Below, piece by piece: positions 16,738 through 62,400 of a stretch of DNA of 64,000 nt. The notes under the pieces were generated by a model. It was given only the letters and a program-made list of their open reading frames with translations. It had not been told where the DNA came from and made no database searches. Source of the stretch: Chelydra serpentina (Eukaryota; Chordata; Testudines; Chelydridae); contig JBAIAC010000004.1 of the NCBI GenBank assembly GCA_037349315.1, forward strand, positions 36,831,001 through 36,895,000, read 5' to 3'. The translations under genes and the position numbers were made by a program. Every line of letters begins with the position of its first letter. The stretch's first letter is position 1.

Positions 16738-17636
16738 GTAAATGTTTCTTCATGCTTCCTGATGGAAAACTGAAAGAAAACTTTTAATTCCCTGCCTTTG
16801 TATATACAGACTGGAATGTTATGACAATCAGCTACAAATGAATATTTGTAACAAGGCTTTTCACGTTGCAGTTCCATTGCATTTTCCAGAATTACTCATG
16901 CATGTAGCTTTTTCTAAACAGTCACCAACTCATATTGCTGTGGTAACCATTTCAGGCATATAAATTGTTAAAATAAATTGCTTGTTATTCAGTATCCAGA
17001 AACTTCCAGTCAGAGAAAAATATAGCATTCCTACCAGGACCAGTGCCATGGGAATTAAATCCCTTTTATACAGTACTTTCAGTAGACAAAATGTGGTAAT
17101 TTCATGCAGTGTAATAGAAAATATCAGTTTGGGTTTTTTGCCCTGGCAACATGATGTTATTTTTAAAGAACATAATATTCAAGGGACAGCCATAAAACAA
17201 TGCTAAAACAAACCAAGCACTCAACAAAATAAGAGAAACAACAGTGCTTTACTACACAAGCTTCTTAATAATTTGAAAATTAAAAAAGGAGCATTAGATT
17301 GTGTACTGAAAACCAGTAGCAATATTTAGTCACTAAAAATAATGACCTTTTAATTGTAGAGATGGGCCAACGCAGCAAAATTTGGATTGAATCAGAAGTT
17401 CTCCAATGTCTGGGGATGGTTAGAGGTGCAGGGTTTTGATTCTGGACCATGTCTGCTTAACTGAGACATTCTGATTTTACTGGATTGTGCCAAATAAGAG
17501 AATCTTACCCATGTGTCTAGTACGGGCTTCGGCTGTTTTATTTCATAGAATCATAGAATCATAGAATCTCAGGGTTGGAAGGGACCTCAGGAGGTCATCT
17601 AGTCCAACCCCCTGCTCAAAGCAGGACCAACCCCAA

Positions 17637-20483
17637 CTAGATCATCCCAGCCAGGGCTTTGTCAAGCCTGACCTTAAAAACCTCTAAGGAAGGAGATTCC
17701 ACCACCTCCCTAGGTAACCCATTCCAGTGCTTCACCACCCTGCTAGTGAAAAAGTTTTTCCTAATATCCAACCTAAACCTCCCCCTCTGCAACTTGAGAC
17801 CGTTACTCCTTGTTCTGTCATCTTCTACCACTGAGAACAGTCTAGATCCATCCTCTTTGGAACCCCCTTTTAGATAATTGAAAGCAGCTATCAAATCCCC
17901 CCTCACTCTTCTCTTCTGCAGGCTAAACAATCCCAGTTCCCTCAGCCTCTCCTCATAAGTCATGTGCTCCAGCCCCCTAATCATTTTTGTTGCCCTCCGT
18001 TGGACTCTTTCCAATTTATCCACATCCTTTTTGTAGTGTGGGGCCCAAAACTGGACACAGTACTCCAAATGAGGCCTCACCAGTGCCGAATAGAGGGGAA
18101 TAATCACGTCCCTCGATCTGCTGGAAATGCCCCTACTTATACAGCCCAAAATGCCGTTAGCCTTCTTGGCAACAAGGGCACACTGTTGACTCATATTCAG
18201 CTTTTCGTCCACTGTAACCCCTAGGTCCTTTTCTGCAGAACTGCTGCCCAGCCATTCGGTCCCTAGTCTGTAGCAGTGCATAGGATTCTTCCGTCCTAAG
18301 TGCAGGACTCTGCACTTGTCCTTGTTGAACCTCATCAGATTTCTTTTGGCCCAATCCTCTAATTTGTCTAGGTCCCTCTGTATCCTATCCCTACCCTCCA
18401 GCGTATCAACCACTCCTCCCAGTTTAGTGTCATCTGCAAACTTGCTAAGGGTGCAGTCCACACCATCCTCCAGGTCGTTGATGAAGATATTGAACAAAAC
18501 CGGCCCCAGCACCGACCCTTGGGGCACTCCACTTGATACCGGATGCCAACTAGACATGGAGCCATTGATCACTACCCGTTGAGCACGACCATCCAGCCAG
18601 TTTTCTATCCACCTTACCGTCCATTCATCCAGCCCATACTTCTTTAACTTGCTGGCAAGAACACTGTGGGAGACTGTATCAAAAGCTTTGCTAAAGTCAA
18701 GAAATAGCACATCCACTGCTTTCCCCTCATCCACAGAGCCAGTTATCTCATCATAGAAGGCAATTAGGTTAGTCAGGCATGACTTGCCCTTGGTGAATCC
18801 ATGCTGACTGTTCCTGATCACTTTCCCCTCCTTTAAGTGGTTCAGAATTGATTCCTTGAGGACCTGTTCCATGATTTTTCCAGGGACTGAGGTGAGACTG
18901 ACTGGCCTGTAGTTCCCCGGATCTTCCTTCCCTTTTTTAAAGATGGGCACTACATTAGCTTTTTTCCAGTCATCCGGGACCTCCCCCGATTGCCATGATT
19001 TGTCAAAGATAATGGCCAATGGCTCTGCAATCACATCGGCCAACTCCTTTAGCACCCTCGGATGCAGTGCATCCGGCCCCATGGACTTGTGTTTGTCCAG
19101 CTTTTCTAAATAGTCCCGAACTACTTCTTTCTCCACAGAGGGCTGGTCACCTCCTCCCCATACCGTGCTGCGGAGTGCAGCCGCCTGGGAGCTGACCTTG
19201 TCTGTGAAGACAGAGGCAAAAAAAGCATTGAGTACACTAGCTTTCTCCACATCCTCTGTCACTAGGTTCCCTCCCTCATTCAGTAAGGGGCCCACACTTT
19301 CCTTGACCTTCTTCTTGTTGCTCACATACCTGAAGAAACCCTTCTTGTTACTCCTAACATCTCCGGCTAGCTGCAACTCCAAGTGTGATTTGGCCTTCCT
19401 AATTTCACTCCTGCATGCCTGAACAATATTTTTATACTCCTCCCTGGTCATTTGTCCAATCTTCCACTTCTTGTAAGCTGCTTTTTTGTGTTTAAGACGA
19501 GCAAGGATTTCACTGTTAAGCCAAGCTGGTCGCCTGCCATATTTACTTTTCTTTCTACACATCGGGATGGTTTGTTCCTGCAACCTCAATAAGGTTTCTT
19601 TAAAATACAGCCAGCTTTCCTCGACTCCTTTCCCCCTCATGTTATTCTCCCAGGGGACCTTGCCCATCAGTTCCCTGAGGGAGTCAAAGTCTGCTTTTCT
19701 GAAGTCCAGGCTCTGTATTCTACTGCTCTCCTTTCTTCCTTGTGTCAGGATCCTGAACTCGACCATCTCATGGTCACTGCCTCCCAGGTTCCCATCCACT
19801 ATTGCTTTCTCTACTATTTCTTCCCTGTTTGTGAGCAGCAGGTCAAGAAGAGCTTTTCCCCTAGTTGGTTCCTCCAGCACTTGCACCAGGAAATTGTCCC
19901 CTACACTTTCCAAAAACTTCCTGGATTGTCTGTGGACCGCTGTATTGCTCTCCCAGCAGATATCGGGGTGATTAAAGTCACCCATGAGAACCAGGGCCTG
20001 TGATCTAGTAACTTCTGTTAGTTGCTGGAAGAAAGCCTCGTCCACCTCATCCCCCTGGTCTGGTGGTCTGTAGCAGACTCCCACCACGACATTACCCTTG
20101 TTGCTCACACTTCTCAATTTAATCCAGAGACTCTCAGGTTTTTCTGCAGTTTCATACTGGAGCTCTGAGCAGTCATACTGCTCTCTTACATACAACGCAA
20201 CTCCCCCACCTTTTCTGCCCTGCCTATCCTTCCTGAACAGTTTATATCCATCCATGACAGTACTCCAATCATGTGAGTTATCCCACCAAGTCTCTGTTAT
20301 TCCAATTACGTCATAATTCCTTGACTGTGCCAGGACTTCCAGTTCTCCCTGCTTGTTCCCCAGGCTTCTTGCATTTGTGTATAGGCATTTAAGATAACTC
20401 ACCGATTGTCCTGCTGTCCCAGTATGGGGCAGGAGCCCTCCCCTCTTGCACTCACCTACTTGTGCTTCCTCCCGGTATCCCAC
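17637..20483 (-). CDS. CR1 ORF2: endonuclease-reverse transcriptase, uninterrupted 948 aa
   Basis: An unbroken frame starting [15 protein letters not shown]. Residues about 30-265 form an APE-type endonuclease: [11 protein letters not shown] (metal/DNA contact Asn), VIGITETWW (catalytic Glu), [21 protein letters not shown] (terminal SDH). Residues about 460-750 form the reverse transcriptase: [62 protein letters not shown] and [10 protein letters not shown] with the catalytic FADD. A conserved C-terminal region ([28 protein letters not shown]) completes the usual length. All visible catalytic residues are present. Target-primed reverse transcription by such enzymes also mobilises the Cry SINE. 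Whether this copy is expressed cannot be judged here. Confidence 0.93.
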
Positions 20484-60996: not shown

Positions 60997-61352
60997 TTAG
61001 GACCATGCAATAGGGAAAGCAAACACAATACTTAAATGCAAATTCCAATTGACATTACCAGGTCGATTTATCTTATCTCAACCTAATTATAGAGGTCAAA
61101 ACTTATGTCCATCAATAAAAGGAAGTGCTTCCTCTGGAAAATTGATTTGGTGCAATAATAATCTGTAATCAAATGACAAAAATTGCTGAATAACTCCTGG
61201 AGCACGCTGATTGCCTTCAACGCATTGATTTCAGTGGAGTTGAAGGTATGCAACACCTTGCTGAACTGGCATCAAAACATAAGATCTTTTAAGGTGAGGA
61301 ATTTCAGTACATCTTTGAAGTTTAATTTCAGGGATGTCTTTAAATTTTGCAA

Positions 61353-61577
61353 GGAGCAATGTCACTGATCGGTCCATCAGCCCTCACAGAGAGGGCGCCG
61401 ATCACAACACATCAGTTGCGTTGTTTTAGCCAGTCCTCCAACTACCCGCTGGCCAAGCTGTCAGTAGCACCGGACACCCGACTGACATAGCACACAGCAG
61501 CCTAGAACTCCTAAGTGATCCGCCAACCGCAGCCTCCCAAGCAGCTGGGATTACAGGCGCGCGCCACCACACCAGGC
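61353..61577 (-). ncRNA. 7SL (SRP RNA)-like retrocopy with 13-bp TSDs
   Basis: On the - strand the insert begins GCCTGGTGTGGTGGCGCG at exactly the position of 7SL +1 and continues CCTGTAATCCCAGCT, GGGAGGCTG, GGAGTTCTAGGCTG and GTCGGGTGTCCG. These follow the 5' Alu-domain and helix-5 strand of SRP RNA. After about 115 nt the likeness fades, with a weaker match AAAAC..CTGAT..GT.GTGATCG. The 3' part forms its own hairpins (GCCCTC/GAGGGC inside GATCGG/CCGATC). TTAAATTTTGCAA flanks both sides (61340-61352, 61578-61590). There is no poly(A). It is a retrotransposed RNA copy; the parent may be a shortened 7SL-derived RNA. Confidence 0.8.
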
Positions 61578-61639
61578 TTAAATTTTGCAATACTGTATAT
61601 TTTATGTGTAATTTCCCCTAAGACACTATTGCATTTTGT

Positions 61640-62400
61640 AGAAGCGACAAAGAGTCCTGTGGCACAGTGGCGTAGCCAGGTTTAGAGCACAGGGGGAGCG
61701 GCGGCACTATAAAAAGGCGCTTCCTCGCTCCCCCTGTACTCACCTGGTGGCGCTTTAAAGGGCCCGGGGCTCCAGCCGCTGCGGAGCCCCTGGGCCTTTT
61801 AAATCCCCGCCCGAGCCCAGCTCCGGCAGCGGGGCTGGGGGGGCGCTTTAAAGGGCCGGCGGCTCCCTGCAGTTGCAGGAGCCGCCGGCCTTTTAAAGCG
61901 CCCCCCTCAGCCCCGCTGCCGGAGCTAGGCTGGTGGGGGGGCGCTTTAAAAGGCCAGTGGCTCCCCGCAGCGGCAGGAGCTGCCGGCCTTTTAAAGTGCC
62001 CCCCGCCAGCCCCGCTGCCGGAGCTAGGCTGGGGAGGGGGGCGCTTTAAAAGGCCGGCGGCTCCTGCCGCTGCGGGGAGCCGCTGGCCCTTTAAAGTGCC
62101 CCCCCGAGCCCGGCTCCCGCAGCCGGGCTCGGGCAGCACCTTAGCGCCGCTTTTCCTCACAGGGGGAGCGGCCGCTCCCTCTGCTCCCCCCATGGCTACG
62201 CTACTGATGTGGCACCTTATAGACTAACAGGCATATTAGAGCATAAGCTTTTGTGGGTGAATACCCACTTAGTCGGATGCATTCGACGAAGTGGGTATTC
62301 ACCCACGAAGGTTTATGCTCCAATATGTCTGTTAGTCTATAAGGTGCCACAGGACCCTTTGTTGCTTCTACAGATCCAAACTAACACGGCTACCCCTAGA
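61640..62400. repeat. Palindromic repeat-end module (as 30255), split by hAT
   Basis: gaagcgacaaagagtcctgt (61641) continues after the hAT as tgtggcaccttatagactaa (62208) and meets its inverted copy from 62279 onward. The two arms join at tgca. Each arm has a GTGGGT-ATTC-ACCCAC stem (62291-62306 on +) between a CGACGA core and GAAG, a degenerate hammerhead-like order. The tail is cagatccaaactaacacggc. Confidence 0.7.
61665..62206. mobile_element. hAT MITE with GC-rich palindromic array
   Basis: CAGTGGCGTAGCCA and TGGCTACGCTACTG termini, 542 bp, flanked by CTGTGGCA and ATGTGGCA (one mismatch). The interior has three to four units of about 100 bp, each a palindrome around gccggccttttaaagcgcc, alternating with ccccgctgccggagctaggc. 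Confidence 0.9.

Follow-up and report, generated by a model that had tools for sequence, protein, structure and literature searches.

Evidence for a SINE family with a 7SL-derived head in the turtle Chelydra serpentina

A 7SL-headed insert between perfect target site duplications

The window analysed here is a stretch of 64,000 nt of the Chelydra serpentina genome (contig JBAIAC010000004.1, positions 36,831,001 to 36,895,000). Perfect 13-bp direct repeats TTAAATTTTGCAA at 61340-61352 and 61578-61590 bracket exactly 225 nt (61353-61577), which on the minus strand open with the +1 G of 7SL RNA and hold no poly(A) tail, just as an earlier note on this DNA had described: a 225-bp insert with perfect 13-bp target site duplications (TSDs), starting at 7SL +1 and lacking poly(A). 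No other copy of the element was found within the 64-kb window. The parts of the locus are listed below.

61578..61590, minus strand: 5′ TSD, a perfect 13-nt direct repeat; TSDs recur in sister copies, 33/40 of them exceeding the 99% limit set by mismatched pairs.
61471..61577, minus strand: 7SL-derived head, SINE nt 1-107, equivalent to 7SL nt 1-113 minus 6 nt; 46.4 bits (E 1.7e-11) with Rfam Metazoa_SRP, under the gathering score; consensus identical to the host canonical 7SL at 93/107 aligned nt.
61564..61573, minus strand: putative pol III A-box segment GGTGTGGTGG (7SL: GGCGCGGTGG; 7SL box from the available text of PMC7245038).
61499..61509, minus strand: putative pol III B-box segment AGTTCTAGGCT (7SL: AGTTCTGGGCT; same source).
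61451..61468, minus strand: possible remnant of the 7SL helix 5 3′ strand (SINE nt 110-127, S domain deleted); 14/17 aligned nt match with one gap, and pairing was compared with shuffles.
61405..61423, minus strand: body hairpin A (SINE nt 155-173), predicted fold; among 87 copies, 56 have A-T and 13 have G-C at pair 161-167.
61367..61403, minus strand: body/tail hairpin B (SINE nt 175-211), predicted fold, common to sister copies.
61361..61366, minus strand: short tail AGTGAC, the start of the CAGTGA-type repeat of sister copies, from the 40-copy alignment and tail counts.
61353..61360, minus strand: 8-nt 3′ transduction ATTGCTCC, by sequence the flank of a parent copy at C2:87984837-87985061, whose 3′ TSD opens with ATTGCTCC; the 18-mer GATCAGTGACATTGCTCC occurs at these two places alone in 2.28 Gb.
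61340..61352, minus strand: 3′ TSD, a perfect 13-nt direct repeat.

Elsewhere in the window, a CR1 LINE on the minus strand at ~17540-20480 carries an open 948-aa ORF with endonuclease and reverse transcriptase domains (Pfam) and ends in the tail ATTCTATGATTCTATGA; among six window ORFs searched against Pfam, this one alone was matched. Positions 61680-62190 are a GC-rich run of near-repeats in which TTTAAAG motifs occur, and include a 191-aa ORF that matched nothing in Pfam.

The head derives from 7SL RNA

The earlier note had put the 7SL stretch at about 115 nt. The stretch is real, and its 107 nt align to 7SL nt 1-113, of which six nt are missing in a single gap. For this comparison the window head was aligned to human 7SL and the family consensus, described below, to one of the 7SL genes of its own genome; the consensus head and the host canonical 7SL agree at 93 of 107 aligned nt. 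The consensus thus retains 7SL nt 1-113 less six, including the segments of box A and box B, which differ from the 7SL boxes printed in the available text of PMC7245038 by two changes and one change, respectively, and would be the pol III promoter elements. TTTT is absent inside the consensus, and the alignment lacks the S domain. Positions G13, G14, C34 and C37 and the TGTAAT motif are the same in the SINE consensus as in the host 7SL; in Alu RNA these loop bases and this turn bind SRP9/14.

In the scan with the metazoan SRP model that the earlier note had proposed (Rfam Metazoa_SRP, RF00017), the resemblance was confirmed for the head alone (46.4 bits, E 1.7e-11), and the whole insert scored lower than its first 107 nt (35.7 bits), both values lying under the gathering score of 70; an Rfam scan at gathering level accordingly gave no match. 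The insert therefore does not score as a metazoan SRP RNA gene, with 35.7 bits against the gathering score of 70, and the 26 7SL genes scored in this genome reach 237-281 bits.

At least 26 full-length 7SL genes are present in the genome, 25 of them clustered (26 scored of 44752 candidates). The canonical gene (L048, C12:5939923-5940222) has a CRE upstream. The 25 further genes (237-253 bits) are clustered at C7:14623-391193 and C12:6137671-6260637 (L049-L059). Eleven of these 25 were read and form a variant class, 97-100% alike and 91-92% identical to the canonical gene. They have two upstream sequence types of their own, neither with the CRE, and show a double T-A to G-C change within a helix. 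By analogy with oocyte and somatic 5S genes, the clustered variants resemble a second class of SRP RNA gene.

The 3′ half is mostly foreign to 7SL

The earlier note described the 3′ part as distinct from 7SL and hairpin-rich. Its distinctness stands, with the corrections that the last 8 nt (61353-61360) are flank of a parent copy and that ~18 nt after the head possibly come from the 7SL 3′ strand. Whole-half alignments to the rest of 7SL were not significant (119-167 of 1000 shuffles as good), nor was consensus nt 108-217 closer to the host 7SL than its shuffles (422-741 of 1000 as good). The idea that the 3′ half is ordinary turtle 7SL, which the earlier note had itself raised, thus finds no support in the comparison with shuffles, and neither does decayed ordinary 7SL, a 7SL 3′-strand origin of nt 110-127 aside. 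A known small RNA or snoRNA was likewise rejected, since the 118 nt behind the head matched only two Rfam families in a search up to E 10 (E 2.5 and 6.3).

The short stretch directly after the head needs separate treatment. SINE nt 110-127 match the 7SL 3′ strand at 14 of 17 aligned positions, with one gap, in the register in which that strand pairs with the 5′ strand. When pairing in this register was scored, 8 of 300 shuffles did as well for nt 108-150 and 18/300 for nt 108-135, compared with 54/300 for nt 151-217 and 0/300 for real 7SL. A second scheme with a joint score gave, for subfamily g1 (see below), 26/400 shuffles over nt 108-150, 311/400 over nt 151-217 and 7/400 over nt 108-130, a narrow window picked after the alignment had been seen; for subfamily g2 the values were 24/400 (nt 108-150) and 10/400 (nt 108-130). 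Pairing alone under that scheme gave 77/400 (nt 108-150) and 7/400 (nt 108-130) for g1 and 58/400 (nt 108-150) for g2. The sequence match of nt 110-127 by itself is not significant against shuffles, and a free-energy test of the helix-5 strand in the window copy, run without the register, found no excess over shuffles. Taken together, these results are suggestive of 7SL 3′-strand sequence in the ~18 nt after the head.

As to hairpins, the 118-nt 3′ part is mildly rich in them (z -1.5, 13/200 shuffles as stable), which upholds the earlier description for this part; the whole insert folds no more stably than its shuffles (69/200 as stable). The consensus ends in a predicted two-hairpin body and a short tail without poly(A), namely AGTGAC with one or two CAGTGA-like units. 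At pair 161-167 of hairpin A, 87 copies show A-T (56), G-C (13), A-C (10), G-T (7) and G-G (1). The change of this pair fits selection for pairing, but both steps could also be CpG transitions.

A uniform, dispersed family with at least two subfamilies

We searched the window's own genome (2.283 Gb, 806 contigs). All 40 copies scored, out of 1808 first-look candidates, match at 94-100% identity and extend at least to SINE nt 216, and 37 of them begin at nt 1. Their alignment yields a single consensus made of the 7SL head, a common body and a common tail. A 22-mer across the head/body junction has 712 exact matches (356 per strand) and its reversed control none; a 21-mer of the tail occurs 254 times, again with no match of the control. 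The first 30 junction places, taken without regard to similarity, all carry the element, 25 of them starting at nt 1-6. Conversely, all 18 tail-positive places on C1-C4 that lack the exact junction word hold the same element, almost complete in 15 cases and 5′-truncated in 3. These counts, with a 3′ half that is uniform in the aligned copies, provide the several copies with a common 3′ half that the earlier note had looked for as support, and contradict the other outcome it had considered, a unique 3′ part in each copy.

Both search words favour young copies, so family size can be estimated from below: 13 of 32 tail 21-mer places (C1, C2, C3 and C4 to 64.27 Mb; listings compared by hand) also hold the junction 22-mer, and 712/0.406 gives a low estimate of ~1,750 copies. 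Exact patterns of the element, three in number, found nothing in viral collections, and phage and plasmid collections gave no matches either.

Linked variants define two subfamilies, g1 and g2, with 12 copies each and 6 unassigned among 30 unselected copies. Mean non-CpG distance to the own consensus is 0.026 for g1 and 0.030 for g2, a difference that is not significant; against the overall consensus, the 30 copies have a mean non-CpG K2P of 0.042, and 127 of 837 CpG positions are mutated. Divergence of ~3% from the subfamily consensus suggests, on an assumed substitution rate, activity tens of millions of years ago. The SINE lineage itself probably predates the copies that were read, because its head (93/107 against the host 7SL) diverges more than the copies do from their consensus.

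We also looked for a parent SINE that would combine this body with a different head, and rejected the idea. Non-7SL sequence lies upstream of the body at 21 places, of which 10 were read and comprised 2 full and 8 truncated or broken copies; no two of the upstream stretches at those 10 places are alike, and the bunching of truncations at nt 109-112 is a product of the search pattern used.

Insertion features and a source-daughter pair

In a TSD search over the 40 copies, 33 exceeded the 99% limit of a control made from mismatched pairs, with lengths of 8-17 nt. A larger set of 69 non-duplicate copies (L017 dropped as the same place as L089), from which 6 not of full length were left out, gave 49 of 63 passing with a median of 11 nt. 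Copies below the control threshold numbered 7/40 and 14/63, and one of the 40 (L014) had no repeat at all. The insertion site is T|A, with T at -1 in 40/49 and A at +1 in 38/49; C is commonest at +2 (19/49), and the commonest bases from +2 to +4 are C, T, T. The AC that opens the target copy consequently often matches the GAC/ACA end of the SINE tail. At least 26 of the 49 TSD-bearing copies have an extra 1-5 bases ending in G before GCC, where 7SL begins, from either a transcript start slightly upstream or added bases.

SINEs mobilised by L1 have a poly(A) tail and a TT|AAAA site. The present copies have no A tail and show C, T, T at +2 to +4, which sets them outside that type. Dispersed copies with TSDs, a T|A site, no A tail and 5′ truncations indicate target-primed reverse transcription by a LINE-type enzyme that does not use poly(A).

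One pair of copies is informative about how the family spreads. The window copy and the copy at C2:87984837-87985061 (L009) share six states off the consensus, and the next copies share three. One of these states is seen in 3/83 copies, one in 5/87 and the other four in 10 to 22 copies. In both copies ATTGCTCC follows GTGAC, and L009 is flanked by its own TSD, ATTGCCCCTGC and ATTGCTCCTGC with one mismatch, whose 3′ copy begins with ATTGCTCC. The 18-mer GATCAGTGACATTGCTCC, spanning the element end and ATTGCTCC, occurs at exactly two places in 2.28 Gb, the window copy and L009. Since ATTGCTCC is the start of the TSD of L009 and the 18-mer is confined to these two places, 61353-61360 is transduced flank and the window copy is, on sequence grounds, a daughter of L009 with an 8-nt 3′ transduction. 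L009 would have been read through its end and the RNA reinserted, and thus an inserted copy was itself a template, a behaviour that marks a SINE and sets the family apart from dead retrocopies. This one pair and the subfamilies are indirect evidence that copies act as templates.

Searches for a partner LINE

None of the 18 tail places on C1-C4 belongs to a LINE with the SINE tail, and none of five places with up to 3 mismatches and non-SINE sequence upstream (judged by eye) does so, a more diverged tail being one that would escape this search. A three-unit tail occurs 9 times against 8 for its reversed control, which is background. With no LINE of this tail found, the family is not filed as a SINE with a LINE-derived tail, the hagfish type. 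TSD length names no LINE clade.

CR1 sequence was seen in contact with the element at two loci. At L120 (C4:94907873), with L125, a 5′-truncated CR1 of ~2.1 kb, 98% identical to the window CR1, lies inside a SINE copy. At L113 (C14:15969946), with L126, the order is SINE head, a duplicate of the locus's 3′ flank, a CR1, the SINE body and the flank once more.

Weighing the explanations

We consider with high confidence that these sequences are best explained as a SINE family of ~217 nt with a 7SL-derived head (class SINE1). Their 5′ part derives from 7SL from +1, the chimeric copies are many, dispersed and uniform, and TSDs differ between copies. Of the two readings offered in the earlier note, an undescribed 7SL-derived SINE in turtle is borne out by the many copies with one shared 3′ half and individual TSDs, and a shortened SRP RNA variant is disfavoured by the dispersal of the copies, most with TSDs of their own, and by the full-length 7SL genes elsewhere in the genome. 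Taken alone, the window copy, with its 7SL 5′ half, foreign 3′ half and TSD, would also pass for a 7SL retropseudogene, whether plain or degraded, or for a chimera formed once by template switching between 7SL and some other RNA, but 712 exact junction words and the uniform 3′ half in the copies read leave this explanation practically no room. Dead retrocopies of a single-copy functional Alu-domain RNA gene, either BC200-like or a shortened SRP RNA, would account for the 7SL-type 5′ half with its SRP9/14 core kept, for the predicted hairpin body and for the A-T versus G-C states of the hairpin A pair between subfamilies; at least two subfamilies (12 g1, 12 g2 and 6 unassigned of 30) and the descent of the window copy from an inserted copy with its own TSD speak against such a source, which we hold to be very improbable.

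For the enzyme that moved the family, the CR1 present in the window is a candidate, given that CR1 3′ ends abut SINE pieces at L113 and L120. Yet at L120 the CR1 is flanked on either side by SINE sequence, and GATGG appears to be duplicated, as expected of a CR1 inserted into a SINE copy and hence later than that copy. At L113 the SINE head lies upstream in a locus that has been rearranged, and the CR1 tail ATTCTATGA is unlike the SINE tail. Template switching with CR1 was rejected, the junctions at both loci being explained by CR1 insertion and rearrangement, and a CR1 partnership through these junctions seems unlikely.

A proposed cycle for the SINE

For the preferred reading, a 7SL-headed SINE, we propose the following cycle. 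The 7SL-derived A and B boxes would drive RNA polymerase III from +1, and transcription would continue past the end of the element into flanking DNA. In the RNA, the 5′ part could adopt the fold of that half of the Alu domain which binds SRP9/14, and dock on ribosomes translating a LINE reverse transcriptase. This LINE enzyme, other than the L1 type that uses poly(A), may then recognise the 3′ hairpins, nick at T|A, prime on or shortly after the CAGTGA tail and leave target duplications of ~11 nt.

Relation to known 7SL-derived families

Cry SINEs are tRNA-headed, in contrast to the family described here. Cry is a turtle SINE too, and is named as such in PMC7983390. The earlier note had placed 7SL SINEs mainly in primates, rodents and tree shrews, which holds for Euarchontoglires; a hagfish family is also known, given in the available part of PMC7245038 as the first evident SINE1 outside that group. 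Known SINE1 families have the S domain deleted and the 7SL 5′ and 3′ strands joined into an Alu domain. Alu, B1 and FLAM of Euarchontoglires have, like the turtle SINE, a 7SL head with box A and B segments and a 5′ Alu domain; the 7SL parts common to them are 1-63, 76-83 and 267-299, and they depend on L1 and carry a poly(A) tail (PMC7245038, available text), whereas the turtle SINE keeps 7SL 1-113 less 6 nt and has a separate body and no poly(A).

The closest parallel described there is SINE1-1_EBu of the hagfish Eptatretus burgeri, which likewise combines a 7SL 5′ head, a deleted S domain, a non-poly(A) 3′ part and TSDs, of about 17 nt in the hagfish, and whose 2363 full-length copies put both families in the low thousands (PMC7245038, available text). 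SINE1-1_EBu consists of 96 nt of 7SL 5′ and 44 nt of 7SL 3′ sequence, an RTE-derived 3′ part and AAC repeats. The turtle SINE differs in a head that runs to 7SL nt 113, a 3′ strand that is at best an 18-nt remnant and a CAGTGA-like tail, the tails being compared by description. P7SL_MD and P7SL_Cpo are also multi-copy and 7SL-derived, but by the same source they are full-length 7SL with poly(A) and not chimeric.

The portions available of PMC10886601 and PMC9599045 name no reptile 7SL-headed SINE, and a search of the open literature by title and abstract start found no such family, for which a repeat-database entry may exist. The element thus seems to be an apparently unrecorded Alu-like one, of reptile (probably turtle) origin independent of primates, rodents and hagfish. 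Globin exons of the genome bear on the turtle label, four of ten globin places having been read. With double-length human chains that score by two stretches set aside, the alpha-D exon comes closest to the HbD alpha chain of 1v75 (128.4 bits, next 110.1) and the alpha-A exon to 3at5 (127.0 against 118.4), both turtle haemoglobins. The two beta exons score higher with 1faw, a goose haemoglobin (147.5 and 150.2), than with 3at5 (132.1 and 134.8), which a beta paralogue could account for; turtle fits these exons best.

Tentatively, and as a possibility that we regard as less than even, we suggest that 7SL-headed SINEs arose independently for a third time in turtles, by union of only the 5′ half of the Alu domain with a self-contained two-hairpin 3′ module that comes from no LINE visible in the genome. 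The SRP9/14-binding half alone would then suffice for ribosome docking, and a reverse transcriptase other than that of L1 would recognise the hairpins, which would be under structural selection. Insertions of elements of this kind are also useful as phylogenetic markers. If 7SL-headed SINEs have had a third separate origin, in a reptile and without poly(A) at the 3′ end, one exception becomes a pattern, and it can be tested which portion of the Alu domain is needed to hijack a reverse transcriptase.
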